Assembly (NCBI GenBank): GCA_003153655.1
Contig: PMAK01000254.1
Location: 7,942 to 25,838 of the forward strand
Reading direction: 5' to 3'
From: Phycisphaerales bacterium
Lineage (GTDB): Bacteria > Planctomycetota > Phycisphaerae > Tepidisphaerales > Tepidisphaeraceae
Length of the DNA: 17,897 nucleotides
A program made the translations under genes and the position numbers. This document shows positions 4,301-17,897 of this stretch, one piece after another (the first letter of the stretch is position 1; each line of letters opens with the position of its first letter). Under the pieces are notes generated by a model, which was not told where the DNA came from, ran no database searches, and saw only the letters and a program-made list of their open reading frames with translations.

Positions 4301-4622
4301 CCAGAACGATCCTGATTGCAGGCTGTTTCTGGTTAGTTTGAAGGCGGGTGGATTGGGGTTGAATCTGACCGCGGCGCAGTATGTGTTTCTGCTTGATCCC
4401 TGGTGGAACCCGGCTGTGGAGGCGCAGGCAATCGACCGCGCACATCGCATCGGGCAGACGCAGCAGGTGTTTGCTTATCGGTTGATCGCCAAGGATACGG
4501 TTGAAGAGAAGGTGCTGAAGCTGCAGCAGAGCAAGCGGGATTTGGCGGATGCGATCATCAATGCGGACAATGCGCTGATCAGCAAGCTTGGACGAGAGGA
4601 CCTGGAACTGCTGCTGTCATGA
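1299..4622 (+). CDS. SWIM zinc-finger SNF2-family helicase/ATPase
   Basis: A 1107-residue SNF2 (superfamily 2) DNA-dependent ATPase. The N-terminus carries a SWIM zinc finger (C63-x-C65 ... C75-x-H77), a DNA- or protein-binding module known from bacterial SNF2 proteins. Residues 100-620 are a poorly conserved middle region. The ATPase core follows: motif I DDMGLGKT (about 665-672), the DEAQ box (about 770), S-G-T-P-V-Q-N (about 798), then the C-terminal lobe with L-D-G-K-T-R and the A-H-R-I-G-Q motif near 1048-1053. Such proteins move along or remodel duplex DNA; the exact bacterial role is unsettled. Start chosen: TTG at 1299, because GGAG (1288-1291) lies 7 bases upstream and the protein begins with the conserved pre-SWIM region. 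It overlaps the hydrolase stop (TTGA) and the next start (ATGA), implying translational coupling. Confidence 0.93.
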   Translation: MTPIQQLKSDFPRHTRVKGDDYFRRNAVQIVDSEPGQIRARVQGTALYDVSIGWDDVEYNYHCSCPYFLDEGEPCKHLWATLLAADAKRLLPEDAERVEEDEVDEVEEEEFVPEVRTLKLGNREVQFLKFRETHRPANAKPQRHAVWRRRLTEMRSNWTWRNEAPASVWPVNKQIVYVIEAEASKEAGELAIQLGSRLANKPGDIKRLRLRSDQIHQLPEAIDRDLIGILVGVGNGADFEYDVREIDARLWLRGAHHDLIRRMCLTGRCVLRGGGDDGNIQPIQWDDREPWRLHLAILPDGSKQVYRLEGTLRRGEERIGITDPALIVAGGPIFIGDKAAAFEDDGAFPFVHLLSREQDLEVPIEQGDDLVEELLQFPRLPRLDLPAEMGISESRTTPRPRLVLTPPTGARTSVDSDRLLCRLSFDYDETSIPRDQEGPAVFDTAQRRIVYRDPGFEAQAVARLRELGFRPDNDFGGNVREFRLLPRRLPAVVSALTSQRWHVEVSGKVYRQPGKIRMAVSSGIDWFELDGEAEFEGVIIKLPRLLKAIRKGETTIVLDDGTIGILPEQWLKRYGLLAAVAGVKDETIQFSRKQVGLLDALLADMPATDVDEAYSRARDELRRFDGVQPIDPPASFVGSLRPYQCDGLGWFDFLRTFGLNGCLADDMGLGKTVQVLALIEQRRLLRQAAKASGGAVAGPSLVVVPRSLVFNWRQEAAKFTPELRILDHASADRLRSTEHFQDFDVILTTYGTLRNDIAQWKDMSFDYVILDEAQAIKNAASESAKAARLLQADHRLVLSGTPVQNHLGELWSLLEFLNPGRLGASSAFASLTTSADRSVSAETRQLLSQALRPFILRRTKEQVARDLPEKFEQTIFCELDKRQRALYDELKEHYRQALLGRIEKDGLGKSKLQILEALLRLRQAACHPGLLNKSSIDDASAKLDTLLPRLAEIADEGHKAIVFSQFTSFLAIVRKKLDEQGVPYEYLDGKTRDRQQCVDRFQNDPDCRLFLVSLKAGGLGLNLTAAQYVFLLDPWWNPAVEAQAIDRAHRIGQTQQVFAYRLIAKDTVEEKVLKLQQSKRDLADAIINADNALISKLGREDLELLLS

Positions 4623-6496
4623 GCGAGCAATCGGACATCGTGCAATCGCTTAGGGCCGCGGTGGAGCATCATCGGAGCGGCCGGCTGAAGGAGGCGGAGG
4701 AGGGTTATACACGGGTTTTGGTGCGCGATCCGAATCAGCCGGACGCGCTGAATCTGCTGGGGGTTCTTGCGACGCAGATGGGCGAGCCGATTGTGGCGCA
4801 GGAGTTGATCAAGCGCGCGATCGCGGTGAAGCCGACTGTTGCGGATTTTTATGACAATCTGGGGGATGCGCTTACGGCTCTGGGGCGATATGACGAGGTG
4901 ATAGCGGCGCGCCGACACGCTGTTGCGCTGAATCCTCGTTTGGTTCGGTCGCACTATCTGCTCGGCGCTCTTCTGGGTGATATGGGGCGATACGAAGAGG
5001 CGACCACGGCATTTCAGACCGCTCTTCAAATCAAGCCGAACGACGCGGAAATCCTCAGCAATCTGGGCTTCGCGCATTACATGCGCGGAAAGTTGGATGA
5101 GGCATTTGCCGCGATAAGCGAGGCGGCGCGTCTCCGGCCGAATGTGGCGAAGATTGAGATGAACCTTGGGCACGTCTGGCTCGCGCGGGCGGATTACGGG
5201 AAGGCGATGGCCTGCTTTGACCGGGCGATTGGGCTGGAACCGAAGGCCGCTGCGTGGCGGAGCGCGCGGATCATGGCGATGCATTATGACCCGGCGAACG
5301 ACGCGAAGGCGTTGCTGAAGGCGGGACGGGATTGGGATGAAATAGCCGCCGCGCCTTTGCGTCAATTCATTGGCGTTCATGCGAACGATCGATCGCCGGA
5401 GCGCAAGCTGCGCATCGGCTATCTGTCGGCGGATTTCCGGCATCATGTCGTGGGCAACTGCATGTTGTCGCTCCTCTCGCATCACGACCGCGAACAATTT
5501 GAAGTGCACTGTTATGCGAGCATGCCATGCGAGGATGCGGTTACGGCCAAGCTTCGCCAGCAGGCTGCGCGGTGGCGAAGTATCCACGTGGTTAAGGATG
5601 AAAAAGTAGCGGAGATGATCCGGGCCGATCGGATCGACATTTTGGTTGATCTGGGTCTTCATTCGCATGGGAATCGGCTGTCGATATTTGCGCGAAAGCC
5701 TGCGCCGGTTCAGGTGGCGTACTTGGCGTATTGTTCGACGACGGGCTTGTCTGTGATGGATTATCGACTATCCGATCCGCACGTTGATCCGCCGGAGATT
5801 GATCTGGCGGATTATAGTGAGCGGACGGTGAGATTGCCGCGGACGCATCTCTGTTACAAGCCGCTTAAGGAAGCGCCGGAGGTTGCGGCGTTGCCGGCGA
5901 TTTCGGCGGGTTATGTCACGTTTGGATGTTTGAATAATTTCAGCAAATGCTCGCCGGCGGTTCTGGAACTATGGATGCGGATTCTGGCGGCTGCGCCACG
6001 GTCGCGGCTGATTCTGCATGCGAAGCCGGGCGAACATCTGGGTCTCGTGCGTGAGCGATTGGAGCGCGCGGGGGTTGCGGCAACGCGGCTGGAATTCCTA
6101 GCGGAGCGGGATTGGTCGGAATATATCCGAACTTATGCGCGAATCGACATCGCGCTTGATCCATTTCCGTACAACGGTGGAATCACTACCTGCGATGCGC
6201 TTTGGATGGGCGTGCCTGTTGTTACATTGTCGGGCAATACAGCGATCGGGCGAGTTGGGCGGAGCATTTTGTCGAACGTTGGTTTGCCGGAATTGATCGC
6301 ACATTCGTCGGAGGAATATGTCCGGATCGCGATTGAATTGGCGAACGATATTGATCGGCTGAAACGACTTCGCGCGGAGCTTCGGCAGCGGGTGGTTGTG
6401 TCGCCGCTGAATGATCCGAAGCAACTGATGCGGGATATCGAAGTGTTCTTTCGCGACGCGTGGCGAACTTTTACCGCTTCCTCGCCGCCGGGGTGA
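4619..6496 (+). CDS. TPR-containing GT41 glycosyltransferase (OGT/SPINDLY-like), copy 1
   Basis: A 625-residue protein. Residues 8-210 hold about five to six tetratricopeptide repeats (the L-G-x-x-x-x-x-G-R-x-x-E-A pattern). Residues 263-615 form the GT41 catalytic domain of the OGT/SPINDLY family, which transfers sugar from a nucleotide donor (UDP-GlcNAc or GDP-fucose in studied members) to protein Ser/Thr. Visible motifs: I-G-Y-L-S-A-D-F-R-H-H (His275 at the place of human OGT His498), F-S-K (Lys443, aligned with OGT Lys842), and YNGGITTCD (518-526) in the donor-site loop. No signal peptide, so cytoplasmic. It starts in an ATGA overlap with the SNF2 stop. It closely resembles the next gene end to end, indicating a tandem duplicate. 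Donor and target are unknown. Confidence 0.9.
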   Translation: MSEQSDIVQSLRAAVEHHRSGRLKEAEEGYTRVLVRDPNQPDALNLLGVLATQMGEPIVAQELIKRAIAVKPTVADFYDNLGDALTALGRYDEVIAARRHAVALNPRLVRSHYLLGALLGDMGRYEEATTAFQTALQIKPNDAEILSNLGFAHYMRGKLDEAFAAISEAARLRPNVAKIEMNLGHVWLARADYGKAMACFDRAIGLEPKAAAWRSARIMAMHYDPANDAKALLKAGRDWDEIAAAPLRQFIGVHANDRSPERKLRIGYLSADFRHHVVGNCMLSLLSHHDREQFEVHCYASMPCEDAVTAKLRQQAARWRSIHVVKDEKVAEMIRADRIDILVDLGLHSHGNRLSIFARKPAPVQVAYLAYCSTTGLSVMDYRLSDPHVDPPEIDLADYSERTVRLPRTHLCYKPLKEAPEVAALPAISAGYVTFGCLNNFSKCSPAVLELWMRILAAAPRSRLILHAKPGEHLGLVRERLERAGVAATRLEFLAERDWSEYIRTYARIDIALDPFPYNGGITTCDALWMGVPVVTLSGNTAIGRVGRSILSNVGLPELIAHSSEEYVRIAIELANDIDRLKRLRAELRQRVVVSPLNDPKQLMRDIEVFFRDAWRTFTASSPPG

Positions 6497-6516
6497 GGGC
6501 GTGATTTGCGATTGTG

Positions 6517-8385
6517 ATGGCTGAAGAACCGCAAACCATCTCTCAGGCGCTGCGGGCCGCTGTGGACCATCAGCAGCATGGCCGGCTGGCGGAGGCGTCG
6601 CGGATTTATGGGGCGATTTTGGCGAAGCATCCGAATCAGCCGGATGTGCTGCATCTGCTGGGGACGGTTGCGGTGATGACGGGACAGCCGGAAAGAGGGA
6701 TCGATCTGATCGGACGGGCGATTGCGATCAATCCGTCGGCGGCGGGATATCATAATGGGCTGGGCATTGCGCTGGCCACGCTGGGGCGCTATGAGGAAGC
6801 GATTGCTGCGCAGCGCCGGGCGATTGAGTTGGATCCGAATCTTTTCAATGCGCGGCATAATCTTGGGAGCGTGCTGGCTTCGAGCGGGCGATATGAGGAG
6901 GCGGTTGAATCGTTCAAGATTGCGATGCAACTTAAGCCGGACGATCCCAATATACACAATGGTCTTGGCGTTGCGCTGTTGCTGAGCAAGCGGCTCGATG
7001 AAGCGATCACGGAATTTGAGGAGGTCAAGCGGCTCTCTCCGAATTCACCGCAGGTTTACATGCATTTGGGGACGGCATATCTGGACTGTGCGGAGCACGA
7101 TGAAGCGATGGCGTGCTTTGACCGTGCTCTGGCGCTCGAGCCGCCGACGGCGAATCGTCTGAGTACGAAAATCTTTGCGATGCACTATCAGCCGGGAGAG
7201 GATTCGGTGGGGATCCTGAAGACGGCGCGGCAATGGGATGAACTGGTGACGGCGCCACTGCCACGGCCTGCGTTGCCGCATGCGAACGACCGGACGACGG
7301 ATCGGAAGCTACGAATCGGTTATGTGTCGCCGGATTTCCGGGATCATCCGGTGGGCCGGAGTATTTTGCCGCTTTTGGCTCATCATGATCGCGGGGAGTT
7401 TGAGATTTACTGTTATTCCAGCGCGACACGGGAGGATTCAACGACCGCGAAATTGCGCGCGTGCGATGTGGTGTGGCAAAATATTCATCGGTTGAATGAT
7501 GATCGCGCGGCGGAGATGGTTCGGAATGATCGGATTGATATTCTGGTTGATCTGGCATTGCATACGGTGGGACATCGGTTGGCGCTGTTTGCGCGGAAGC
7601 CTGCTCCGGTGCAGATGACGTATCTGGGGTATTGCTCGACGACGGGATTGAGCGCGATGGATTATCGGGTGACGGACGGCCATGTCGATCCGCCCGGGAT
7701 TGATCTGACGGTTTATAGTGAACGGACGATTCGGTTGCCGCGGAATTATTTGTGTTATGTGCCGACGGGCGAAGCTCCTGATGTTTCGCCGCTGCCGTGC
7801 CTGGGTGGCGGTGTTGTCACGTTCGGGTGCCTGAATAAGTTTGCGAAATGTTCGGTCGATGCGCTGGCATTGTGGACTCGAATTCTTCAATTGGTTCCGA
7901 ATTCCCGGCTGATTTTGCATGCGATTGCAGGGAAACATCTGGATCGGGTGCGGGAGCGATTTGAGCGCGGCGGAGTTTCGGCGTCTCGATTGGAGTTTGT
8001 TGGAAAACAGAATTGGCCGGAGTACATGCAAACCTATGCGCGGATCGATATTGGGCTTGATCCGTTTCCGTACAATGGCGGCGTGACCACCTGCGAGGCG
8101 CTTTCGATGGGCGTGCCGGTTGTTACGCTGTCGGGTAATACGGGGGTTGGGCGCGTTGGGCGGAGCATTTTGTCGAATGTGGGGTTGGCTGAGCTGATCG
8201 CGCAAACACCTGAGCAGTATTTGCAATTGGCGGTTGATCTGGCGAATGATCTGGACCGTCTGAAGCGGCTTCGCGCGGAGCTGCGGCCGCGATTGGTGGA
8301 ATCGCCGATGATGGACGGGCCGCAACTGACGCGGGGCATTGAGTCGGTCTATCGAAACGCCTGGCGGCAATATTGCGCGGGTTAG
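6517..8385 (+). CDS. TPR-containing GT41 glycosyltransferase (OGT/SPINDLY-like), copy 2
   Basis: About 622 residues, collinear with copy 1: about six TPRs (roughly residues 10-210), then a GT41 domain. Motifs: I-G-Y-V-S-P-D-F-R-D-H (His near 277), N-K-F-A-K (Lys near 444), YNGGVTTCE (near 519-527) and the shared GRSILSNVGL. The acidic residue after the T-T-C motif is Glu here and Asp in copy 1. ATG at 6517 is preferred; an in-frame GTG directly before it (6514) is an alternative. No good Shine-Dalgarno is visible, and 20 bases separate it from copy 1. RuvC follows after 3 bases, so all are probably on one transcript. Retention of both catalytic motifs argues that both copies are active rather than one being a decaying duplicate. 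Confidence 0.9.
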   Translation: MAEEPQTISQALRAAVDHQQHGRLAEASRIYGAILAKHPNQPDVLHLLGTVAVMTGQPERGIDLIGRAIAINPSAAGYHNGLGIALATLGRYEEAIAAQRRAIELDPNLFNARHNLGSVLASSGRYEEAVESFKIAMQLKPDDPNIHNGLGVALLLSKRLDEAITEFEEVKRLSPNSPQVYMHLGTAYLDCAEHDEAMACFDRALALEPPTANRLSTKIFAMHYQPGEDSVGILKTARQWDELVTAPLPRPALPHANDRTTDRKLRIGYVSPDFRDHPVGRSILPLLAHHDRGEFEIYCYSSATREDSTTAKLRACDVVWQNIHRLNDDRAAEMVRNDRIDILVDLALHTVGHRLALFARKPAPVQMTYLGYCSTTGLSAMDYRVTDGHVDPPGIDLTVYSERTIRLPRNYLCYVPTGEAPDVSPLPCLGGGVVTFGCLNKFAKCSVDALALWTRILQLVPNSRLILHAIAGKHLDRVRERFERGGVSASRLEFVGKQNWPEYMQTYARIDIGLDPFPYNGGVTTCEALSMGVPVVTLSGNTGVGRVGRSILSNVGLAELIAQTPEQYLQLAVDLANDLDRLKRLRAELRPRLVESPMMDGPQLTRGIESVYRNAWRQYCAG

Positions 8386-8388
8386 TGT

Positions 8389-8871
8389 ATGCGAATTGTT
8401 GGAATCGATCCTGGGCTGCTGATCACCGGCTACGGCGTGGTGGATTTTGGCGTGCGTCAGCCGAAGCTGGTGGATGGGGGCGTGTTTCGCTTTCTTGCAA
8501 AGACATCTCTGGCGCATCGTCTTGTGGAGTTGGAAAGGGAACTGAGTGAGCTGCTTGATGAACATAAGCCGGATATTTGCGCGGTTGAGCAGTTGTATGC
8601 GCATTACAAACATCCGCGGACTGCGATATTGATGGGGCATGCGCGCGGGGTGATTCTTTTGGCTGCACAGCGTCGCGGGATTCGGCTTGAACAATATTCG
8701 GCGAATCGAATCAAGAAATCGGTCATGGGTCATGGGCACGCCGGTAAGATGCAGATCCAGCGGGCGATTCAGCAGATTTTCAGCTTGCCATCGCTGCCCG
8801 AGCCGGCGGATGTGGCGGATGCGTTGGCGGTGGCGCTTTGCTGCGGGAGATTCATTGCGGATCGAGGATGA
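8389..8871 (+). CDS. ruvC: Crossover junction endodeoxyribonuclease RuvC
   Basis: A 160-residue Holliday-junction resolvase. It acts as a dimer that cuts two opposed strands of four-way junctions during recombinational repair, normally with the RuvAB branch-migration motor. All four metal-binding acids are visible: Asp7 in GIDPG, Glu67 in A-V-E-Q-L-Y, and Asp141 and Asp144 in A-D-V-A-D-A. The G-H-A-R-G block (84-88) and the K-K-S-V-x-G segment (109-114) are also typical. Length is at the short end for RuvC but nothing is missing. It begins 3 bases after GT41 copy 2 and ends in an ATGA overlap with the acetyltransferase. ruvA and ruvB are not in the window, so it is separated from its usual partners and sits inside a glycosyltransferase operon. 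Confidence 0.95.
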   Translation: MRIVGIDPGLLITGYGVVDFGVRQPKLVDGGVFRFLAKTSLAHRLVELERELSELLDEHKPDICAVEQLYAHYKHPRTAILMGHARGVILLAAQRRGIRLEQYSANRIKKSVMGHGHAGKMQIQRAIQQIFSLPSLPEPADVADALAVALCCGRFIADRG

Positions 8872-9509
8872 AGGCGATGGCGATCAAGCTGGGAAATATC
8901 GTTTTGACGGGGCGGGATGTCGTGCTGCGTCCGCCAGTGCGCGGCGATGCGGAGGCGCTTGCGAAGGCGGCTTCGGAGTCGCGCGAGGAATATGGCTATA
9001 CGCCGGTGCCGGAGGGTCCGGACCGCGCCCGCGTCTACATTGACCACGCACTACGAATGCGCAAGGAGGGATTGCGATATCCCTTTGCGATCATTTATCT
9101 GGGGCGCATTGTCGGAAGCACTAGTTTTTGGGATGTGCAGCCGTGGAATTGGCCGGCGGGTTCGCCGATGCAGCGGCAGGATCGGCCGGATGTTTGCGAG
9201 ATTGGTTCGACGTGGCTGGCTGCTTCGGCGCAGCGGACGCGATGCAACACTGAGGCGAAATTTCTCCTGTTGTCACATGCGTTTGAAACGTGGGCGGTGC
9301 ATCGCGTGATGCTGCGGACGGATGCGCGCAATAGCCGGTCGCGCGCGGCGATCGAGCGGCTTGGCGTCAAATTTGAGGGGATTCACCGGGCAGATAAGCC
9401 GGCGGAGGATGGGAGTGTGCGGGATTCGGCGTTTTTTTCGATTGTCGCGGCGGAATGGTTGGGCGTTAAAGCTAAACTTGTTGAGAAGATGAGCAGGGGT
9501 GAGTTGTAA
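8868..9509 (+). CDS. GNAT-family N-acetyltransferase (RimJ/RimL-like)
   Basis: About 213 residues. The N-terminal strand (L-T-G-R-D-V-V-L-R-P-P) and the C-terminal block W-A-V-H-R-V-x-L-R-T-D, then A-R-N-S-R-S-R-A-A-I-E-R-L-G and E-G near the end, match the Acetyltransf_3/RimJ-RimL branch of GNAT enzymes, which move an acetyl group from acetyl-CoA to a protein N-terminus or small-molecule amine. The Q-R-T-R-x-N-T-E-A-K stretch is at the acetyl-CoA pyrophosphate loop. The start at 8868 overlaps the ruvC stop (ATGA). An ATG at 8877, with GAGG (8864-8867) 9 bases upstream, is an equally plausible start; an upstream TTG at 8838 would need a long overlap and is disfavoured. Substrate unknown. Last clear gene of the operon. 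Confidence 0.85.
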   Translation: MKAMAIKLGNIVLTGRDVVLRPPVRGDAEALAKAASESREEYGYTPVPEGPDRARVYIDHALRMRKEGLRYPFAIIYLGRIVGSTSFWDVQPWNWPAGSPMQRQDRPDVCEIGSTWLAASAQRTRCNTEAKFLLLSHAFETWAVHRVMLRTDARNSRSRAAIERLGVKFEGIHRADKPAEDGSVRDSAFFSIVAAEWLGVKAKLVEKMSRGEL

Positions 9510-9605
9510 ATGCCGGCGGTAAGGACAAAAGAAGATGTTCGGCCACGCAATGTGCCTGCCTATTGGGGTTCTGGCGGGCATTTTGCGGGCGGGCGGGGAA
9601 ATTGA
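9510..9605 (+). CDS. Possible 31-residue small protein
   Basis: An ATG lies immediately after the TAA of the acetyltransferase gene, with AGGGG (9495-9499) 10 bases upstream, and the frame stays open for 31 codons to TGA. The product starts MPAVRTKEDV and ends in a Gly-rich tail. No family is recognised. Position and ribosome-site spacing suit translational coupling to the previous gene. Length alone is not significant in GC-rich DNA, and part of the frame overlaps a G-rich run. Weak call. Confidence 0.25.
   Translation: MPAVRTKEDVRPRNVPAYWGSGGHFAGGRGN
9576..9598 (+). other. G-quadruplex-like run in intergenic DNA
   Basis: Four G-tracts (9576-9578, 9587-9589, 9591-9593, 9595-9598) are separated by loops of 8, 1 and 1 bases on the plus strand. 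The first loop is one base longer than the standard 7-base limit. It lies between the acetyltransferase and the IspD-like gene and could pause polymerase, but a chance run in G-rich DNA is possible. Confidence 0.45.
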
Positions 9606-9666
9606 ATGCGGGACATTTTGGAATGCATTTCTATTTGTGGAGATGAAAAAAGCCAGAGAATCCCGC

Positions 9667-9695
9667 TTGACCCATGCAACCTCTGTGAGAATGAT
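9667..9695 (+). promoter_or_regulatory. Candidate sigma-70 promoter for the IspD-like gene
   Basis: TTGACC (9667-9672; 5 of 6 to consensus) and AATGAT (9690-9695; 4 of 6) are separated by exactly 17 bases. The predicted start of transcription near 9702 leaves a leader of about 16 bases containing AGGGAG (9708-9713), 4 bases before the ATG at 9718. This supports a transcription unit separate from the upstream operon. Confidence 0.5.
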
Positions 9696-9717
9696 GCACT
9701 GACTGGCAGGGAGATTT

Positions 9718-10413
9718 ATGGCCCACTTTTCAGTCGTTCTTTTAACTGCTGTTCCGAGCGCCCTTGGCGGCGAAGGAGCTGGGGCTTTTGTTAAGGTGGA
9801 TGGCCGTGAATGCCTGCTGCGCAGCGTCGAAATGTTTCTTAACCGAGATAATGTCAAGCAGATTCAACTCGTCGTCGCCGGGGAGCAATTCGAGGAATCC
9901 AAGCGGAAATACGGAGCGCATCTCAGCTTCTCCGGCGTAAAGCTTATCGCGGGCGGCAGCAATTGGATGGACCAGCTTGCCGCCGCCGCGGAAAAAATCT
10001 CGGACGAATGCTCCCATGTCATCCTCCACGACGCGGCCCGTCCCGCGGTGGCATACGCAGATATCGACGCCATCATGTCCGAAGTTGAAAAGCACTCCGT
10101 CGTGGTCATGACTACGCCGGTTCGCGCCGGCTTGATCGAGACGGAAGACTCAGGCAAACCCGTCGCCTTTCGATCGTCCCAGCGGTTCGTGCAGGTGGTC
10201 ACGCCCTGGGTCTTCCGCAAGGATAAGTTCCTTGAGATGGGAAAAAACAAGCGAGATCCTATCGCCGCCGACGCGTGGCTAGTCCGATCTTCATCCCTGA
10301 ACATCCGCGTCGGCGCCTCCTCCGATGCCGCCCTGGCCAAGATCATGATCAACATGTTGCCCAAGCCGAAGATGAGGGCGTCGGACAACCCCTTCGAAGA
10401 AGCACAATGGTGA
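9718..10413 (+). CDS. Divergent IspD-like cytidylyltransferase
   Basis: A 231-residue protein that resembles IspD, the enzyme making CDP-methylerythritol in the MEP isoprenoid pathway. Family marks: H-D-A-A-R-P (104-109), V-K-V-D-G-R (25-30, with Lys26 at the place of the P-K-Q lysine), and the P-V-R / V-V-T-P-W-V-F segment (134-166). Several usual active-site parts are altered. The Gly-rich CTP loop A-A-G-x-G-x-R is replaced by T-A-V-P-S-A-L-G-G, the G-G-x-x-R-x-D-S-V motif by G-G-S-N-W-M-D-Q-L, and the N-I-K-V-T lysine loop is missing before the last helix. It may therefore be a paralog with another role, or inactive. AGGGAG precedes the ATG. It has weaker G bias than the upstream genes. 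TarI-like cytidylyltransferase is the alternative. Confidence 0.7.
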   Translation: MAHFSVVLLTAVPSALGGEGAGAFVKVDGRECLLRSVEMFLNRDNVKQIQLVVAGEQFEESKRKYGAHLSFSGVKLIAGGSNWMDQLAAAAEKISDECSHVILHDAARPAVAYADIDAIMSEVEKHSVVVMTTPVRAGLIETEDSGKPVAFRSSQRFVQVVTPWVFRKDKFLEMGKNKRDPIAADAWLVRSSSLNIRVGASSDAALAKIMINMLPKPKMRASDNPFEEAQW

Positions 10414-10458
10414 CGTGTCCTTTGGGGCGCCTCTTCTTTTTTTTGGAGAAACCGGCGG

Positions 10459-10797
10459 ATGAAAACAATCATTCTCCTTTTCATTTCAAACATCTTCATG
10501 ACCACCGCGTGGTATGGACACCTGAAATTTGAAAAGAGCGCCCTATGGAAAGTCATCCTCGTCAGTTGGCTGATCGCCTTCTTTGAATACTGCTTCCAAG
10601 TGCCGGCCAACCGCATCGGCAACCTTGAAGGATGGTCCGGCTATCAATTGAAGGTCGTGCAGGAAGCGATCACGCTTGTTGTATTCGTGGCGTTCGCCAC
10701 CATCTATCTCAAGGAAAAGCTTCAGTGGAATTACCTGCTTGGCTTTCTCCTGGTCATGGCCGGCGTGTTCTGCGTCTTCCACAAATGGACGGCCTAA
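10459..10797 (+). CDS. DUF486 / DMT-superfamily small membrane protein
   Basis: A 112-residue integral membrane protein with about four hydrophobic segments (near residues 3-18, 29-45, 67-83 and 91-107). Hallmarks of DUF486: S-N-I-F-M-T-T-A-W-Y-G-H-L-K near the start, F-E-Y-C-F-Q-V-P-A-N-R-I-G (42-54), and Q-L-K-V-V-Q-E-A-I-T-L. It is a minimal member of the drug/metabolite transporter superfamily; transport substrate and direction are unknown. GGAG (10445-10448) lies 10 bases upstream of the ATG. It follows the IspD-like gene by 45 bases and is probably co-transcribed with it. Its TAA overlaps the stop codon of the convergent glycosyltransferase gene. Confidence 0.88.
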   Translation: MKTIILLFISNIFMTTAWYGHLKFEKSALWKVILVSWLIAFFEYCFQVPANRIGNLEGWSGYQLKVVQEAITLVVFVAFATIYLKEKLQWNYLLGFLLVMAGVFCVFHKWTA

Positions 10798-13373
10798 AAC
10801 GCGCCGCACCACCGCCGCCAGACGTCTCGATACGCTGCTTCCATATCTTGCGCAAATGCCCGGCCATTCATGAGCGGCGAAGCACTCATCCGATCTCGAA
10901 GGGTGCGCCGAATCTCCGCCAGCCGCGGCAAATCAGCCGCCAGCCGAGCGGCGATCGACACGTACTCCTCTTCATTCCGCGCAATCATTTCCGGAAGGCC
11001 GACATTGGTGAGTAAGCTTACTCCGACGCGCGAAACATGAGCCTTCCCCGCAAGCGTCACAACCGGCACGCCCATCCACAAAGCTTCGCAGGTCGTCGTT
11101 GTCCCGTGGTATGGAAACGGATCCAAAGCCATGTCCGCCTGTCCGTAAGACCGAAAATGGTCGCCCCGCTCACTCTTCGGCCCAACAATTTCCAATCGTT
11201 GCGCCCCAATTCCGCGCGCATCAAAACTCTTGATCAAATGATCCCGAACAGCCGCCTCATCCAGCGACCGCTCTTTCATCAATAGCCGGGAATTCGGAAC
11301 CGCCATCAAAAGCGTCGCCCATAAATCCAATGTCCGGGGCGAGAGCTTCGCCAGCCGATTGAATGATCCAAAACAAATCGTCCCACTTTCACTTGCCGGG
11401 AGTGGCCCCACGTCCGGAACACCCTGAGGTTCAGCAAAGCACCAGTTGGTTTTCGGCAATCGAAGCAAAGTCTCGGAATGGAAATCTTCCGTCAATCCCG
11501 GCGGATCGGCCCATCCATCCGTCAGGCGAAAATCCATCGCAGCCAGTCCAGTGGTTCCAGGATGCCCTAGATAATTAATCTGCACCGGCGCCGGCTTGCG
11601 CGCAAAAACTAGCAGCCGGTTGCGAGCCGTATGGCCGGTCAAATCCACCAGAATGTCGATCCCATGCCCGCGAATCATCTCGGCCACGGATTCGTCGGAC
11701 TTTCCAACGATCTCGTGCCACTGATCCGCACAACCGCGCAGGATTGCCGTCGTCGAATCGGTATGCCAAACATCGCTGTAGCCGAAGATCTCAAATCGCT
11801 TATGGTCATGGTTGCGGAAGAGGGGATCAAGAAATTTGCTAACCGAATGCTCCCGAAAATCGCTGGAAACGTAACCAACCCGCAGCCTCCGTTCCGGATC
11901 GCGATTGTTGCCATGCGGCAAAATGGATTTTCGCAACGGCTCTCCGTGCCGCGTGTCCCACCGGCGCGCCTCGGCGAAAGTGGCCGCCCCATCATCGCCA
12001 TGCAGATAGTGAAGACTGAGCACCAGATTGCTGTGATTCGATGGACTGCTCGGCTCAAGATCGACCGCCTGGCGATATTCCGCCAAACTCTCCTCGATCC
12101 GCCCCATATTCATCAAAACAATCGCCAGATTATTATGCGGCGACGCATAGCCAGGCTCTATCGCCATTGCCCGCTGAAGCGCCGCCATCGCCTCATCGTT
12201 CGGCCCAATATCCTTCAGCACATTGCCAAGATTGTTGTAATGCTGTGCGTTTGGATCACTCGCAATCGCTCGCCTAAAAGCATCCACCGCCTCTTCCGGC
12301 CTTCCCGCTTCGTTCAGCACGAGCCCGAGATGATTCGCGGGCCGCGCATCTTCCGGCGTAAGCGCCTGGGCCCGGCGGATCGCATCAATCGCCTCACTTG
12401 ATCGCCCCAGATTGGTCAGCGCATCGCCAAGATTATTCCACGCCTCCGCATAATCAGGCTTGATCGCCACCGCTTTTTTCAGCACCTCAAGCCCTTCGTC
12501 AAACCGATGCAAGCTGAGCAAAATGACGCCGAGATTGTTGAATGCCCTGGCATATTCGGGGTCCAGCGCCACCGCCCGGCGATACGCCTCGATTGATTGC
12601 GATGCCTGCCCCAGCTTCTGATGCGCAATCCCCGCGTTGTAGTGAAAGAGTGCCTTTTTTGGCTGTAATTCCAGCGCACGCACATACGCCGCCAGCGCCT
12701 CCTCCGCGCGATCCAACGCAATGAGCGTATTGCCAAGACTGTTATGCCCATCAGCGAGATTCGGCTGAAGCTTTAGCGCGCGATTGCACGAAACCAGCGC
12801 TTCCTCCGCCTGCCCCAGGTCGGTCAGCACCGCTCCAATCCCCGCGTGCGCTTCAGCTAGATCGGGCTTAAGCACCAAGGCCCGACCAAAAGCCGCCCGG
12901 CCTTCCGGCAGCTTTCCCAACCCATGCAATATCTTACCCCGATTACAATGCGCCTCCGCAAAATCCGGCTTCGCCTTCACCGCCTGCTCAGCCGCATCGA
13001 GCGCCTCATCCAATCGATTCGCCCGCAGCGACGCAACCGCCAGATTGTTCAGAAATTCAACATTCCCCGGATCAAGCACGAGCGCGCCTTGATAAGCCGC
13101 CCGCGCCTCATCCAACTGCCCCTGCATCGTCAGCATCACCCCGAGGTTATTGTAAAAATCTTTAACCCTAGGATTGGCCGCGATGGCCCGGCGCAAAAGC
13201 TCGATCGCAACATCCACCTTCCCCAGCCGATGCGCGATCAATCCCAGCAATTGAATCGCATCCGCTTGCTGCGGCCGGTGGGCCAATATCTGCCGGCACT
13301 CTCCTTCCGCCTGCGCAAGCTGCCCCGCGTGAAACAATTGGAAGGCCCGCTGAATGGCCGGATCGGTCGCCAC
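10794..13373 (-). CDS. Large TPR-GT41 glycosyltransferase (about 13 TPRs), copy 3
   Basis: An 859-residue protein, the longest of the set. Residues 6-445 carry about 13 consecutive TPRs with repeated N-N-L-G / N-N-L-A on the inner helices, resembling the Asn ladder that lets human OGT grip peptide backbones. The GT41 domain (about 496-855) shows V-G-Y-V-S-S-D-F-R-E-H (His509), N-R-L-A-K (Lys676) and Y-H-G-T-T-T-T-C-E (755-763), which differs from the Y-N-G-G-[IV]-T-T-C of the plus-strand copies. It shares this subtype with the truncated gene at the right edge. Start chosen: GTG at 13373, since no in-frame ATG precedes it before the neighbour's stop. It has no Shine-Dalgarno and sits 6 bases after a TATAAT. 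Cytoplasmic. Donor and targets unknown. Confidence 0.9.
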   Translation of the reverse strand: MATDPAIQRAFQLFHAGQLAQAEGECRQILAHRPQQADAIQLLGLIAHRLGKVDVAIELLRRAIAANPRVKDFYNNLGVMLTMQGQLDEARAAYQGALVLDPGNVEFLNNLAVASLRANRLDEALDAAEQAVKAKPDFAEAHCNRGKILHGLGKLPEGRAAFGRALVLKPDLAEAHAGIGAVLTDLGQAEEALVSCNRALKLQPNLADGHNSLGNTLIALDRAEEALAAYVRALELQPKKALFHYNAGIAHQKLGQASQSIEAYRRAVALDPEYARAFNNLGVILLSLHRFDEGLEVLKKAVAIKPDYAEAWNNLGDALTNLGRSSEAIDAIRRAQALTPEDARPANHLGLVLNEAGRPEEAVDAFRRAIASDPNAQHYNNLGNVLKDIGPNDEAMAALQRAMAIEPGYASPHNNLAIVLMNMGRIEESLAEYRQAVDLEPSSPSNHSNLVLSLHYLHGDDGAATFAEARRWDTRHGEPLRKSILPHGNNRDPERRLRVGYVSSDFREHSVSKFLDPLFRNHDHKRFEIFGYSDVWHTDSTTAILRGCADQWHEIVGKSDESVAEMIRGHGIDILVDLTGHTARNRLLVFARKPAPVQINYLGHPGTTGLAAMDFRLTDGWADPPGLTEDFHSETLLRLPKTNWCFAEPQGVPDVGPLPASESGTICFGSFNRLAKLSPRTLDLWATLLMAVPNSRLLMKERSLDEAAVRDHLIKSFDARGIGAQRLEIVGPKSERGDHFRSYGQADMALDPFPYHGTTTTCEALWMGVPVVTLAGKAHVSRVGVSLLTNVGLPEMIARNEEEYVSIAARLAADLPRLAEIRRTLRDRMSASPLMNGRAFAQDMEAAYRDVWRRWCGAF

Positions 13374-13378
13374 GAGAT

Positions 13379-13391
13379 CATTATACGGCTA
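13379..13391 (-). promoter_or_regulatory. Conserved junction motif A with TATAAT, upstream of copy 3
   Basis: The minus strand reads TAGCCGTATAATG. TAG is the stop of copy 4, and TATAAT (13385-13380) ends 6 bases before the GTG start of copy 3. No -35-like hexamer is visible at 16-18 bases, and no Shine-Dalgarno is present. The same 13 bases occur at the other two junctions of this array. Confidence 0.5.
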
Positions 13392-15089
13392 CGCCCCGTC
13401 GCACCATCGCCGCCACACATTCCGGTATGCCGCCTCCACGTTCCGCGCAAAGCGTGGCGCATCCATCAGCGCTGAACTCCGCATCCGCTGCCGCAACGAT
13501 TTCCGCAACTCACCAAGTCGTGGGAGATCGCGTGCGAGCGTCACCGCGAGATCCACGTATTGCTCGGGGCTATACGCGATCAAATCGCCAAGCCCAACAT
13601 TACATAGAATACTTCGGCCGCCGCGTCCCACCGGCGTCTGGCCTGATAAAGCAATTACCGGAACCCCCATCCAGATCGTGTCGCAGGTCGTAATGCCGCC
13701 ACCATACGGAAACGGATCAAGCCCAACATCGATCTGGTGATAAGTCCGCATATACGGCTCCCACGGCTGCCGCTCGACGAACTCCACCCGATCGCGCGTA
13801 ATGCCTAGCCGACTCAACTGTCCATAGAACTCTTCACGCTGCTTACCCACCGGCGCAACCATCAACAGCCGCGATCCCTTCACACGTTTTAAAATCTCGC
13901 ACCACGCCTTCACCGCCAACCCGGAAATCTTCCCAAACTGATTCAAACAGCCAAACGTAATCCACCCATTTTCTTTAGCCGGCAGCGGCGATACCTCCGG
14001 CGCCTCCCCACCCGGCGCATAGCACCAATATGACTCCGGCAGCCGGATCGTCTGCTCGCTGTAACAACTCAAATCCGTCCCGGGCGGATCAAGATGCGGA
14101 TCGGAAAACCGGTAATGCATCCCCGTAATCCCGCTCGTTCCGCAATAACCGAGATAAGTCATCTGCACCGGCGCGGGAATCATCGCAAACACCCGGAGCC
14201 GATTCTTCGCGGTGTGCAATGACAGATCGACAAGCACATCGATCCTGTCCACGCGGATTTGTTCCGCCAGGTCGATATCGCTTAAAACCGCGACATCACG
14301 CCAATGCTGCGCCAGCCCGCGCAATTGTTCGGAAACCGAATCCATCATCCTGACGCCGCTATAGCAAAACACCTCAATCTGATTCCGATCATGGTCGCGC
14401 AGCAGCGGCAACAGATTCCACCCAACCACATGTTCGCGGAAATCCGCCGAAACATAACCCACCTTCAGCTTGCGATCCGCATCGCGATTATTGTCGTGAT
14501 GCCGAACCAGATGCCGCAGCGGATTTCCGTGCTGAGCATCCCATCGCCGCGCTTCTTGCAGAATCGCCTGGGCGTTGTACTCCGGCAGCAAATTCATCGC
14601 GAAAATCAGGTTGCTATGGGCGATTGCATAATCCGGCGCTGACGCCACCGCTTCACGAAATTCTTCGAGCGCCTCCTCCACCCGGCCCAGCGTCAGCATC
14701 ACATTTCCCAGATTATTGTGCGCTTTCGGGAAATCGGGCTTCAGCGCCAGCGCTTTGCGGCCGGCCTCAATTGCCTCATCCAATCGCCCCAGATTCCCCA
14801 GCGCAATCGCCAGATTGTTCTGACACTCCACCTGATTCGGCAAAAGCGCAAGCGACTTTTGAAACGCGACAACCGCCTCCCCCATCCGATTCAACTGGGA
14901 GAGCACAACTCCGACGTTGTAATAAGCTCCCGCGGAATTCGGCTTCAGTGCGGCCGCCTCGCGATACGACGCAAGCGCCTCCTCGCACCGCCCCCGGCTC
15001 ATTAGAATCCCTGCAAGCTGAAAGTGAAGTTCTCCCCGCCGCGGATTATCCGCAATCGCCTTGCGTATCATCTCCTCGTCCACCGACAT
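13389..15089 (-). CDS. TPR-GT41 glycosyltransferase with short TPR region, copy 4
   Basis: A 566-residue protein with only about four TPRs (residues 20-154), then the GT41 domain (about 207-562). Motifs: V-G-Y-V-S-A-D-F-R-E-H (His220), N-Q-F-G-K (Lys387) and Y-G-G-G-I-T-T-C-D (462-470). The first Gly replaces the Asn found in the same loop of copies 1, 2 and 5. It is most like copy 5 (shared W-E-P-Y-[MI]-R-T-Y, G-T-D-L, L-M-D-A-P-R-F near the end), so the two are probably sister duplicates. Start: ATG at 15089, 6 bases after a TATAAT in the junction motif, with no Shine-Dalgarno. The shorter TPR solenoid should give it a different or narrower substrate range. Confidence 0.9.
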   Translation of the reverse strand: MSVDEEMIRKAIADNPRRGELHFQLAGILMSRGRCEEALASYREAAALKPNSAGAYYNVGVVLSQLNRMGEAVVAFQKSLALLPNQVECQNNLAIALGNLGRLDEAIEAGRKALALKPDFPKAHNNLGNVMLTLGRVEEALEEFREAVASAPDYAIAHSNLIFAMNLLPEYNAQAILQEARRWDAQHGNPLRHLVRHHDNNRDADRKLKVGYVSADFREHVVGWNLLPLLRDHDRNQIEVFCYSGVRMMDSVSEQLRGLAQHWRDVAVLSDIDLAEQIRVDRIDVLVDLSLHTAKNRLRVFAMIPAPVQMTYLGYCGTSGITGMHYRFSDPHLDPPGTDLSCYSEQTIRLPESYWCYAPGGEAPEVSPLPAKENGWITFGCLNQFGKISGLAVKAWCEILKRVKGSRLLMVAPVGKQREEFYGQLSRLGITRDRVEFVERQPWEPYMRTYHQIDVGLDPFPYGGGITTCDTIWMGVPVIALSGQTPVGRGGRSILCNVGLGDLIAYSPEQYVDLAVTLARDLPRLGELRKSLRQRMRSSALMDAPRFARNVEAAYRNVWRRWCDGA

Positions 15090-15094
15090 GCCGC

Positions 15095-15107
15095 CATTAT
15101 ACGGCTA
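15095..15107 (-). promoter_or_regulatory. Conserved junction motif B with TATAAT, upstream of copy 4
   Basis: The minus strand reads TAGCCGTATAATG, identical to motif A. TAG ends copy 5; TATAAT (15101-15096) ends 6 bases before the ATG of copy 4. The spacing fits a transcription start at the ATG itself. No Shine-Dalgarno lies in the 15-base gap. Confidence 0.5.
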
Positions 15108-16967
15108 CGCCCGCGCACACCATCGTCGCCACGCATCGCGAAATGCCGCCTCCACATTCCGCGTAAATCGTGGCGCATCCATCAGCGCCGAACTTCGCAT
15201 CCGTTCCCGCAAAGTCCTTCGCAACTCACTCAACCGCGAAAGATCACCCGCGAGTTCCATCGCAAGATCCACATATTGTTCAGGACTTGAAGCAACCAAA
15301 TCGCCAAGCCCAAGATTAGAAAGAATACTTTGGCCGCCGCGTCCCACCGGCGTCTGGCCTGACAAAGTAATTACCGGAACACCCATCCAGATCGTGTCGC
15401 ATGTGGTAATCCCGCCGTTGTACGGAAATGTATCCAGCCCAATGTCGATCCGATGATATGTCCGTATGTAAGGTTCCCAGGTCTGCCGATCGACAAACTC
15501 CACGCGATCAGCCGCGAGGCCGTGCCGATCGAATTGCTCGCGCGTTGTTTCCAGATATTTTCCAAAAGGCGCGTGAATCAGCAGCCGCGATCGTGGCGTT
15601 CGTTTTAAAATCTCAGACCAAAGATCAATTGCCGCGGTCGAAACCTTAGCAAACTGATTCATCGATCCAAACGTGACGTATCCGTTCTGCTTCGCGGGCA
15701 AAGGCGACGGATCGGGCGTTTCCCGGCCCGGCGCATAACACCAATACGTCTCCAACAGCCGAATCGTCTCTTCGCTATAGCATTTCAAATCCGTCCCCGG
15801 CGGATCGAGATGCGGATCGGAGAAGCGATAATGCATCCCCTCGACCCCGCTGGCGCCGCAATATCCCAGATAAGTGATTTGAACCGGGGCGGGAGCAATC
15901 GCGAACGTGCGCAGCCGATTGTTTCCCGTATGCAATGACAAATCGATCAGAATATCGATTCCATCGCCCCTAATCTGCTCCGCGAGACGCTCATCGGTCA
16001 GTAGCAGGACATCGCGCCAATGATCGCTAAAATTTCGTAACTGCTCGGTCATCTCATCCGGGCGCATGACGCTGCTGTAGCAAAATATTTCGTATCGCTC
16101 ACGATCATGCTGCCGCAACAATGGCAATAAATTCCAACCGACAACGTGCTGTCGCAAATCGGGCGAAACATATCCAACCCGCAAACGTCGATCGATATCC
16201 CGGCTATTTTTGTGCGGAAGAATCAGATGCCGGAGGGGCTTGCCATGGCGTTGGTCCCATTTCCGCGCTTCCCGTAGAATCGCCGCCGCGTTACATCCGG
16301 GATGAAAGCTCATCGCGAAGACAAGATTGCTGTGAGCCATCGCGTCGGTGGGGTCGAGTTCGATCGCCCGCCGATGCGCCTGCATCGCATTATCCACTCT
16401 TGCCATTCGGGATAAAATCGCGCCCAGGTTGTTGTACGCCTTGCCGTCATCAGGCTTCGCAGCCACCGCGCGTTGTAAAACCTCATACGCCTCATCGGTC
16501 TGTCCAAGATCCTTCAACGAATTACTCAGGTTATTCAAACTGTCCGCAGACCTCGGATCAATCGCCAGCGCCTGATTAAATATCCCGACCGATTCCGCGA
16601 GTAGTCCTCGCTCCGTCAGCAGCAGCCCCAGATTATTCAGCGCTTCCACAAAATTCGGCCGGATCGCCACTGCCCGCCGCCAGGCCGCCTCCGCCTGTGG
16701 AATTTTCCCCATCTGCTTCAGCACAATCCCCGCATTGTAATAAACCCCCGCATTCTCCGGCTGAATCTTCAGTGCCCGCCAATACGCGTCCAGCGCCTCC
16801 TCCAGCCGCCCCAACATCCCCAGTGCAATCCCCAGACTATTCAGACATTCAACCTGATCCGGCTCGAGCACCAAAGATTTTTGGAAAGCCCCCACCGCTT
16901 CAATCAAGCGCCCCGCCTGATAAAGCTGCATGGCCCGCGCGAAATCATTGCCGCTCGACATACGCAT
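15105..16967 (-). CDS. TPR-GT41 glycosyltransferase, copy 5
   Basis: A 620-residue protein with about six TPRs (residues 5-207), several carrying N-N-L-G or N-N-L-S, then the GT41 domain (about 260-617). Motifs: V-G-Y-V-S-P-D-L-R-Q-H (His274; Leu replaces the usual Phe), N-Q-F-A-K (Lys441) and Y-N-G-G-I-T-T-C-D (516-524). It is the closest relative of copy 4. Two starts are possible: ATG at 16967, or ATG at 16961, which gives M-S-S like the M-S-V of copy 4 and lies 8 bases after the TATAAT of the junction motif; the second fits the array pattern better. Neither has a Shine-Dalgarno. No membrane segment or signal peptide, so cytoplasmic. Confidence 0.9.
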   Translation of the reverse strand: MRMSSGNDFARAMQLYQAGRLIEAVGAFQKSLVLEPDQVECLNSLGIALGMLGRLEEALDAYWRALKIQPENAGVYYNAGIVLKQMGKIPQAEAAWRRAVAIRPNFVEALNNLGLLLTERGLLAESVGIFNQALAIDPRSADSLNNLSNSLKDLGQTDEAYEVLQRAVAAKPDDGKAYNNLGAILSRMARVDNAMQAHRRAIELDPTDAMAHSNLVFAMSFHPGCNAAAILREARKWDQRHGKPLRHLILPHKNSRDIDRRLRVGYVSPDLRQHVVGWNLLPLLRQHDRERYEIFCYSSVMRPDEMTEQLRNFSDHWRDVLLLTDERLAEQIRGDGIDILIDLSLHTGNNRLRTFAIAPAPVQITYLGYCGASGVEGMHYRFSDPHLDPPGTDLKCYSEETIRLLETYWCYAPGRETPDPSPLPAKQNGYVTFGSMNQFAKVSTAAIDLWSEILKRTPRSRLLIHAPFGKYLETTREQFDRHGLAADRVEFVDRQTWEPYIRTYHRIDIGLDTFPYNGGITTCDTIWMGVPVITLSGQTPVGRGGQSILSNLGLGDLVASSPEQYVDLAMELAGDLSRLSELRRTLRERMRSSALMDAPRFTRNVEAAFRDAWRRWCARA

Positions 16968-16968
16968 C

Positions 16969-16981
16969 CATTATACGGCTA
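16969..16981 (-). promoter_or_regulatory. Conserved junction motif C with TATAAT, upstream of copy 5
   Basis: The minus strand reads TAGCCGTATAATG, identical to motifs A and B. TAG ends copy 6; TATAAT (16975-16970) is 8 bases before the ATG at 16961 or 2 bases before the ATG at 16967. The 3' coding ends upstream of the three motifs differ, so identity across the junction stands out. Confidence 0.5.
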
Positions 16982-17897
16982 CGACTCCGCGCACCAGCGC
17001 CGCCACACATCCCGATATGCTCCCTCTACATCTCGCGCAAATTGCCGCCCATCCATCAGCGGCGATGTCTGCATCCGCGCCCGCATTCCCGCGCGAAGTT
17101 CCCTCAGCCGCGTGTGATCACGGGCTAAACCCGTCGCGATGGCTACATATTTTTCCTGGCTGTCAGCGATCAATTCTGTAAGCCCCATATTCGTTAGCAG
17201 GCTTACTCCCACCCGCGCCAGATGCGTCTTTCCCGCCAGAGTTATTACCGGCACGCCCATCCAGAGCGCCTCGCACGTCGTGGTCGTCCCATGATATGGA
17301 AAAGTATCCAATGCGATATCAACATCGCCGTACTTGCGAAAATGAGAAGCCAAATCATCCTCATGCCCGGCCAACTCCAGCCGTTCCGGGCCAATCCCCC
17401 GCTGCTCAAAATCCGCCCGAATTCGCTCGCAAATCGCCGCATCAGCGAGTGCTCGGTCTTTCAAAAGCAAGCGTGATCCCGCGATCCCCTTCAAAATTTC
17501 AGCCCACATATCCAAAACCATCGGCGTCGCCTTGGCGGCCTTGTTGAAGGAACCAAAACAAAAAGACCGTCCCGTCGAAACCGGAGTCGGAGCAACGTCG
17601 GGTAGATCAGTCGGCGGCGCAAAACACCAATTCGTCTTTGGCAGCCTGAGCAGCTTCTCGCTGTAAAACGCCTCCGTCATCCCGGGCGGGTCGGCCCATC
17701 CGTCCGTCAGCCGATAGTCAATCGCCTCCAAGCCCGTCGTCCCCGCATATCCGAGCCAGGAAATCTGAACCGGCGCCGGCTTACGCGCAAAAACCAGGAG
17801 CCGATTCCGCGCCGTGTATCCCATCAACTCCACAAGAATGTCGATCCCATGACCGCGGATCATTTCGGCCAGAGGCCCGTCGGACAGAATCGTTGTT
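16979..17897 (-). CDS. TPR-GT41 glycosyltransferase, copy 6 (C-terminal part, cut by right edge)
   Basis: The frame is open from the TAG at 16981-16979 to the window edge, giving 305 complete codons from the C-terminal part of a GT41 domain. The visible N-terminal end (T-T-I-L-S-D-G-P-L-A-E-M-I-R-G-H-G-I-D-I-L-V) matches an internal stretch of copy 3, so the true start and TPRs lie beyond the window. Motifs: N-K-A-A-K (Lys at the OGT Lys842 place), Y-H-G-T-T-T-T-C-E and S-L-L-T-N-M-G-L, all of the copy 3 subtype. The protein ends W-R-R-W-C-A-E-S, like the other minus-strand copies. It is the most upstream visible gene of the minus-strand array. The His motif at the start of the domain cannot be checked. 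Confidence 0.88.
   Translation of the reverse strand, partial: TTILSDGPLAEMIRGHGIDILVELMGYTARNRLLVFARKPAPVQISWLGYAGTTGLEAIDYRLTDGWADPPGMTEAFYSEKLLRLPKTNWCFAPPTDLPDVAPTPVSTGRSFCFGSFNKAAKATPMVLDMWAEILKGIAGSRLLLKDRALADAAICERIRADFEQRGIGPERLELAGHEDDLASHFRKYGDVDIALDTFPYHGTTTTCEALWMGVPVITLAGKTHLARVGVSLLTNMGLTELIADSQEKYVAIATGLARDHTRLRELRAGMRARMQTSPLMDGRQFARDVEGAYRDVWRRWCAES

Follow-up and report, generated by a model that had tools for sequence, protein, structure and literature searches.

The described enzymes closest to the genes considered here include Arabidopsis SPINDLY (SPY), a protein O-fucosyltransferase (PDB 7y4i, 8dtf) that joins tetratricopeptide repeats (TPRs) to a catalytic domain of family GT41. 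In the excerpted text of PMC9715652 and PMC10027727, SPY requires K665 and H495 for activity, K689, A731 and Y744 are the residues setting GDP-fucose versus UDP-GlcNAc as donor, and an intermediate prokaryotic group shows mixed patterns at the donor residues. In bacteria, FlmG of Caulobacter is a soluble, cytoplasmic flagellin O-glycosyltransferase with a TPR arm plus a GT-B domain, and its TPR arm selects the protein acceptor (PMC7591256, in excerpt). TtOGT of Thermobaculum terrenum (PDB 5djs) is a bacterial TPR-GT41 protein without an intervening domain, a single OGT that was studied from a genome with a GH84 partner (PMC4683255, in excerpt). Here, we compare with these systems a tandem array of TPR-GT41 genes from a Phycisphaerales bacterium of the family Tepidisphaeraceae. 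The window, the whole stretch of 17,897 nucleotides that was analyzed, is C264:7942-25838 (contig PMAK01000254.1) of a 4.65-Mb draft genome in 304 contigs, 88% complete and 3.4% contaminated. On balance, and with appreciable doubt, we favor the reading that the array encodes soluble cytoplasmic protein O-glycosyltransferases, tandem-duplicated from two stocks, which would act on different acceptors and use at least two donors.

The layout of TPRs followed by a GT41 domain is common to SPY and the array, which differs in being bacterial and a tandem row. An initial annotation had described six TPR-GT41 genes between 4619 and 17897, two on the plus and four on the minus strand in convergent arms, and this description stands: PF13844 (Glyco_transf_41) exceeds its curated cut-off in 6/6 window proteins, with whole-protein E-values from 1.5e-46 to 1.4e-58. 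As a measure of the array, the figure of six holds for the window only, since the row on the contig has eight genes, A1 and A2 on the plus strand and A3 to A8 on the minus strand. A1 (4619..6496, plus strand, 625 aa, six TPR tiles) is followed after 17 bp by its sister A2 (6514..8385, plus strand, 623 aa, five tiles), which is 65% identical to it in the catalytic domain. The minus arm meets the plus arm at about 10794 and is spaced by gaps of 11-15 bp: A3 (10794..13373, 859 aa, 11 tiles), A4 (13389..15089, 566 aa, four tiles), its sister A5 (15105..16967, 620 aa, six tiles, 71% identical to A4 in the catalytic domain, with a possible alternative start at ATG 16961), and the C-terminal 305 aa of A6 (16979..17897). 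The five complete window genes are intact. The window is bounded on both sides by NN assembly joints, of which the right one truncates A6 (817 aa in full on the contig, past the joint), so the continuity of A6-A8 depends on the scaffold. With 11, 9 and 12 tiles in A6, A7 and A8, the array spans 4 to 12 tiles, against 0.54 per protein in shuffled control arms, close to the range of about 4 to about 13 proposed earlier.

The catalytic residues are conserved well beyond the array. We placed 208 catalytic domains in a FastTree phylogeny, with partial copies dropped; it covers 24 of about 28 GT41 loci in this genome and full copies from relatives (G013, 18; G020, 17; G003, 8; G018, 4; G019, 2), with G001, G010, G012 and G015 left out. 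It also includes copies from among 79 named loci from other genomes (L064, L087 and L094 being on G013 or G020 contigs). The K665 column (OGT K842) is Lys in 8/8 array copies, 24/24 tree copies from this genome, 73/73 family copies and 132/133 other named copies, and the H495 column is His in 8/8, 22/24, 68/73 and 129/133, respectively. The catalytic His and Lys motifs, noted earlier in every complete copy, are constant in the array at these two columns but not at the second pocket His column, H571, which is His in 7/8 array copies and Tyr in A6, the same residue as in human OGT.

The donor pocket, on the other hand, divides the array. From A1 to A8, column 689 reads H, H, K, V, H, K, K, K; column 728 reads Y, Y, H, Y, Y, H, H, H; column 731 reads T, T, S, T, T, K, M, A; and column 744 is Y in all eight. 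Within the array, K689 is therefore found in A3, A6, A7 and A8 alone, and these four share with SPY H495, K665, K689, H728, Y744 and T747-T749. The SPINDLY-type donor signature of K689, no Arg at 731 and Y744 (PMC10027727, in excerpt) is present in 4/4 of them, and judged by aligned residues they carry the plant SPINDLY (GDP-fucose) signature. A1, A2, A4 and A5 lack K689 (H, H, V, H) and differ from SPY also at columns 728 (Y), 747 (G) and 748 (I or V). The array resembles human OGT, the SEC type, in its GT41 fold as judged by sequence, its TPR superhelix and its catalytic Lys, but the OGT-type L866, R904, C917 pattern is missing, with Cys at column 744 in 0/8 copies and Arg at column 731 likewise in 0/8. 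The predicted pocket of A1, A2, A4 and A5 fits neither SPY nor OGT. Since the pocket differs between subtypes, the subtypes may differ in sugar besides target, a dimension overlooked when the array was first read as conserved catalysis with variable recognition arms. Among solved structures, the best match of both A3 (E 6e-147) and A1 (4e-117) is Arabidopsis SPINDLY, above human OGT and TtOGT. The HMW1C-like N-glycosyltransferase model NCBIfam NF049992 (cut-off 1000) gives only 49.1 bits for A1, 40.8 for A3 and 25.2 for A5, the three of the six window proteins that were compared with it. K689 is found in 21/73 family copies versus 103/133 other named copies.

The tree groups A3, A6, A7 and A8 in one clade (support 0.98), with three G003 copies as its sister (0.83), while the pairs A1 and A2 (0.998) and A4 and A5 (0.993) fall inside a clade of copies from this genome (0.977). 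The copies of six genomes form 42 single-genome clades, versus at least 59 in 200 label shuffles. Together, these clades and the single-genome clustering indicate that two older stocks, A1/A2/A4/A5 (I/II) and A3/A6/A7/A8 (III), duplicated within this lineage to give the array. The three subtypes that had been recognized from loop motifs are exact in sequence, with PYNGG[IV]TTC in A1/A2, PY[GN]GGITTCD plus GRGG in A4/A5, and PYHGTTTTCE in A3/A6, and in the tree they fall into these two stocks.

The TPR arms retain the canonical repeat and change faster than the catalytic domains. Over ten pairs, identity is 35-52% in the TPR part and 56-75% in the catalytic part. In six array pairs, nonsynonymous divergence (dN) is 0.39-0.57 in the TPR part versus 0.21-0.34 in the catalytic domain, a ratio of 1.5-2.5 in 6/6 pairs, with similar synonymous divergence (dS) of 0.9-1.6 in both. 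The faster evolution of TPRs that had been suggested as a check is thus borne out, and the contrast, with the FlmG precedent, upholds the idea of variable recognition arms. The further claim that the arms diversified for different targets did not fare as well: dN/dS is below 1 in both parts (about 0.2-0.3 in the catalytic domain), no positive selection was seen in the TPR arms of the six pairs, and faster TPR change is also expected from weaker constraint. Diversification aimed at the lumen of the superhelix was rejected, as identity is 28% at concave TPR positions and 31% at other exposed positions in six pairs (p 0.40), and 30% versus 39% in four pairs without a common gene (p 0.11). A comparison of concave positions with the rest (28% and 38%) looked stronger with semi-buried positions lumped in and was discarded. 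The TPR consensus and the set of concave positions used here are assumptions. An exchange of TPRs between the stocks was considered for A4, which over its first 140 residues is closest to A6 (49% over 134) and whose residues 61-140 are 50% like A5 and 53% like A6. It was dropped, as the grouping of A4 with A5, rejected in a 28-row tree (p 0.0007), was no longer rejected in a cleaner 36-row tree (p 0.18), which did not reject A4 grouped with A6, A7, A8 or C270 either.

A short promoter-like element resembling a -10 box, CCGTATAAT, precedes 6/6 minus-arm genes. In the window it lies on the minus strand at 13380..13388 before A3, with TATAAT 6 bp before the GTG, at 15096..15104 before A4, 6 bp before the ATG, and at 16970..16978 before A5, 2 bp from ATG 16967 or 8 bp from ATG 16961, in each case directly 3' of the TAG of A4, A5 and A6, respectively. 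At all five inner minus-arm junctions, the TAG of the upstream gene abuts the element without a gap. The distance from the end of TATAAT to the start codon is 6 bp in five of the genes (A5 being the 2- or 8-bp case), while the letters of the spacer vary. Genome-wide, CCGTATAATN6RTG occurs six times, five of them in the array, and its reversed control not at all. The sixth occurrence, on C129, falls within the beginning of an open frame; by eye we take this frame to be oxidase-like, as a candidate label only. More generally, TANNNT stands exactly 6 bp before the start in 16/159 called genes of the fetched loci of this genome, versus 0.8 expected from in-gene start codons; four of the 16 are A4, A6, A7 and A8, with A3 skipped as open-ended. 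Given this excess and the repeated element, the genome seems to use leaderless-type promoters, one per minus-arm gene, and leaderless transcription seems common in this lineage. Gaps of 11-15 bp would suggest a single operon for all six minus-arm genes, a layout disfavored by the element at every junction; with an element near or at leaderless spacing in each junction, separate units are more likely than one operon, and the minus-arm genes are probably expressed in this way. The plus arm has no such elements, and there the A1 start and the SNF2 stop overlap by 4 bp. At first start codons, the element was not seen again before a gene in the other GT41 loci of this genome, of the family or in five outside loci. 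One further copy in the loci of this genome lies within a GT41 gene (L042), and one gene of the Nitrospira locus L073 has a plain TATAAT 6 bp before an ATG.

Gene content, catalytic and pocket residues, the tree, the faster TPR change and the repeated elements are direct observations, from which we infer activity, donors, protein acceptors, promoter function and separate expression as follows. By comparison with SPY, OGT and FlmG, the N-terminal TPR superhelix would grip an acceptor protein, and a single sugar would be passed to Ser or Thr by the C-terminal GT-B domain. Stock III (A3, A6, A7, A8) would most likely use a GDP-6-deoxyhexose such as GDP-fucose, and stock I/II (A1, A2, A4, A5) most likely another nucleotide sugar. 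Each minus-arm gene would have its own leaderless-type promoter element and probably be its own expression unit, while the plus arm would be carried in an operon-like string with the SNF2 helicase and ruvC.

Genes for GDP-sugar synthesis bear on the donor assigned to stock III. A gmd gene over its cut-off occurs in 9/10 GT41-bearing versus 12/31 GT41-free genomes (p 0.009), and within the family in 9/10 versus 7/15 (p 0.04), kinship being ignored in both. A GDP-L-fucose synthase (516 bits, cut-off 500) in L072 and a gmd (560 bits) in L101 lie near K689 copies; of the other two named-locus neighbors tested, one is a heptose epimerase and one is over no model's cut-off. Two of the three G003 sister copies of A3/A6/A7/A8 lie in GT41 runs, on C37, where gmd (516 bits, cut-off 415) borders the run, and on C558, where a gmd-like gene (161 bits, below the same cut-off of 415) and an FkbM methyltransferase precede a GT41 pair.

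Several observations weigh against the reading we favor. In the G003 runs, the copy adjoining the gmd or gmd-like/FkbM genes has Phe at 744 and, at 689, either R or Y; the sister copy with K689 comes second in the run and is not the neighbor of the sugar genes. The K689 copies of L101 likewise have Phe at 744. Counting split gmd genes (G008, G014) reduces the link within the family to 9/10 versus 9/15 (p 0.18), and the gmd of this genome is on C110, away from the array. SPY A731 is replaced by S, K, M and A in A3, A6, A7 and A8, so the match to SPY at this position amounts to "not Arg" only. TtOGT, a structurally characterized bacterial GT41, did not show O-GlcNAc activity (excerpts of PMC4683255 and PMC9715652). 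Around the GT41 loci of the family, no non-sugar gene recurred conspicuously as a partner. Finally, 15/24 family relatives have no GT41 match and the array is not conserved between genera; absence from close relatives is what the initial annotation had itself named as counting against its proposal.

The alternatives that survive best are two, both unlikely in our judgment. The array may serve surface glycoproteins, attaching sugars to PEP-CTERM or other exported envelope proteins while these are still in the cytoplasm; this overlaps with the favored reading and differs from it in target alone. One gene for a PEP-CTERM protein (C264:6385-7344) is found 5 kb upstream of the array, and a second directly before GT41 remnants on C268. 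Against this, PEP-CTERM proteins are present in 41/41 genomes and GT41 in 10/41, which led us to reject PEP-CTERM as a partner trait, and with 44 PEP-CTERM matches in this genome, closeness to a few GT41 loci may be chance. As acceptors in general, envelope proteins that receive their sugar ahead of export are as possible as proteins that stay inside the cell. The "dedicated intracellular glycosylation system" proposed at first is not supported by any eraser: the O-GlcNAcase GH84 (PF07555) has no match in this genome (G000, 88% complete). This separates the array from human OGT and from TtOGT, and we rejected an O-GlcNAc cycling system of OGT plus OGA on the same absence.

About equally improbable is tandem duplication without new specificity, with copies kept for dosage or drifting near-neutrally, and with targets that overlap or are not distinct. 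The lineage-specific array is consistent with this, as are concave TPR positions that are not special, weaker constraint as a source of faster TPR change, and GT41 loci elsewhere in the genome that are broken, split or cut (C268, C258, C46, C195). Other observations argue for maintained function: the five complete window copies are open, catalytic-domain dN/dS is about 0.2-0.3 in array pairs, the promoter-like elements are identical despite dS of 0.9 or more, and the array has two distinct donor pockets.

Less likely still is that the substrate of the GT-B domain is a glycan, lipid or small molecule, with the TPRs holding a biosynthetic complex. A mixed cluster, mostly of NDP-sugar epimerase or dehydratase-like proteins, is near GT41 in 14 loci (nine neighbors tested), and protein activity is established for few bacterial GT41 members; yet SPY, human OGT, FlmG and HMW1C-like enzymes all act on protein, and the arms keep their canonical repeat. 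That the array is a flagellin-glycosylation set of the Caulobacter FlmG type is very unlikely: although FlmG is a TPR plus GT-B O-glycosyltransferase acting on flagellins (PMC7591256, in excerpt), a flagellin, FlbT or FlaF gene (four traced clusters) lies at most 6 kb from GT41 in 11/79 named loci, and flagellin occurs in 9/10 GT41-bearing genomes, with flagellin-family matches on C54 of this genome, FlmG is one gene with flagellin targets whereas the array is off the flagellin contig, C54 has no GT41 locus, the GT41-rich G020 has no flagellin match while 22/31 GT41-free genomes have one, and about 28 GT41 loci are too many for three flagellin-family matches, so that flagellin, which does not track GT41 or its number in relatives, was rejected as a partner trait and as the sole target.

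GT41 matches were found in 10/41 genomes (this one included), in 9/24 same-family relatives and in 0/16 genomes of other families of the class. This genome has 55 PF13844 matches, which we grouped by hand into about 28 loci, several of which are broken or truncated at contig ends, and full scoring gave 62 matches in G013, 54 in G020 and 15 in G003. In an even draw across the phylum, 33/294 genomes (this one included) had a GT41 match, and among these 33 its first-look candidate count was the highest at 56, followed by 16 and 14. Four Isosphaeraceae planctomycetes have 0-2 GT41 each by CAZy (PMC5352709, in excerpt). A conserved chromosomal site for the array was rejected, as flanks of about 1.5 kb had no GT41 at RuvC loci in 22 other genomes or at SNF2-type loci in 20 other genomes.

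So large and mixed a GT41 set is unusual, though smaller runs are known elsewhere: 5/79 named loci have runs of 3-5 adjacent GT41 open reading frames. Adjacent TPR-GT41 frames in Planctomycetia F1-20-MAGs128 (L125), a Nitrospira metagenome-assembled genome (MAG; L073) and a Proteobacteria MAG (L066) reach longest runs of 5, 4 and 4, and differ from the array in having no CCGTATAAT before each gene, by a start-codon scan. In a Desulfatirhabdium MAG (L061, 5993-23827), one open frame of at least 5945 aa has eight GT41 domains in series, the last cut by the end of the locus, which may be likened to the array idea fused in a single polypeptide; in seven further named loci, a single frame has two GT41 domains. 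In the open-licence PMC literature, we found no paper with bacterial GT41 tandem arrays as its title subject, nothing on an expansion of tetratricopeptide glycosyltransferases in Phycisphaerae, and only unrelated work on leaderless starts with Planctomycetes.

The array is embedded in genes of other kinds. A SNF2/SWIM helicase gene (1299..4622, plus strand) is the first neighbor of the plus arm, and ruvC (8389..8871, plus strand) begins 3 bp past A2 in the same orientation. From 316 to 8871, a hydrolase, the helicase, A1, A2 and ruvC overlap or almost touch, and TATCAT sits 7 bp 5' of the hydrolase ATG at the start of this string; the plus arm and the DNA-repair type genes may share one leaderless operon. 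Between the arms lie, all on the plus strand, ruvC, a GNAT gene, an IspD-like gene and a DUF486 gene. The IspD-like protein (9718-10413) scores 75 bits versus the NCBIfam ispD cut-off of 181, and may be a divergent IspD or a different cytidylyltransferase. Upstream of A8, an open frame in the opposite direction (L032, 12562-13320) has a membrane-like stretch and no NCBIfam match; as a candidate label only, its product may resemble an AlgJ/AlgX-type protein. Elsewhere in the genome, a 701-aa TPR protein on C298 (L037, 7977-10082) is flanked by two GT41 genes, its own frame having no GT41 match, and a 1245-aa protein on C253 (L046, 6137-9955) has a weak GT41 match in which most pocket residues are gone and the Lys is kept.

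Taken as a whole, the initial interpretation is partly supported. The kind of enzyme is known, and the size, mixture and promoter layout of the array make it a variant, not a new class. A bolder picture, which we hold to be a long shot, is a bacterial protein-sugar code, in which about 28 TPR-GT41 writers would draw on at least two donor sugars. Some of them would form the array, with its separately promoted leaderless units and TPR arms that gain and lose repeats; the writers would mark many different intracellular or pre-export proteins, and would have arisen repeatedly in one Phycisphaerae family. How GT41 enzymes choose their proteins and sugars is hard to study in eukaryotes, which have a single OGT and a single SPY type. 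This one bacterium, with its roughly 28 natural variants, eight of them side by side, sharing the catalytic Lys and differing in two pocket types and 4 to 12 TPRs, offers a series for separating the parts that set the sugar from those that set the target, and its four SPY-type copies would allow a direct test of protein O-fucosylation by bacterial relatives of SPINDLY.

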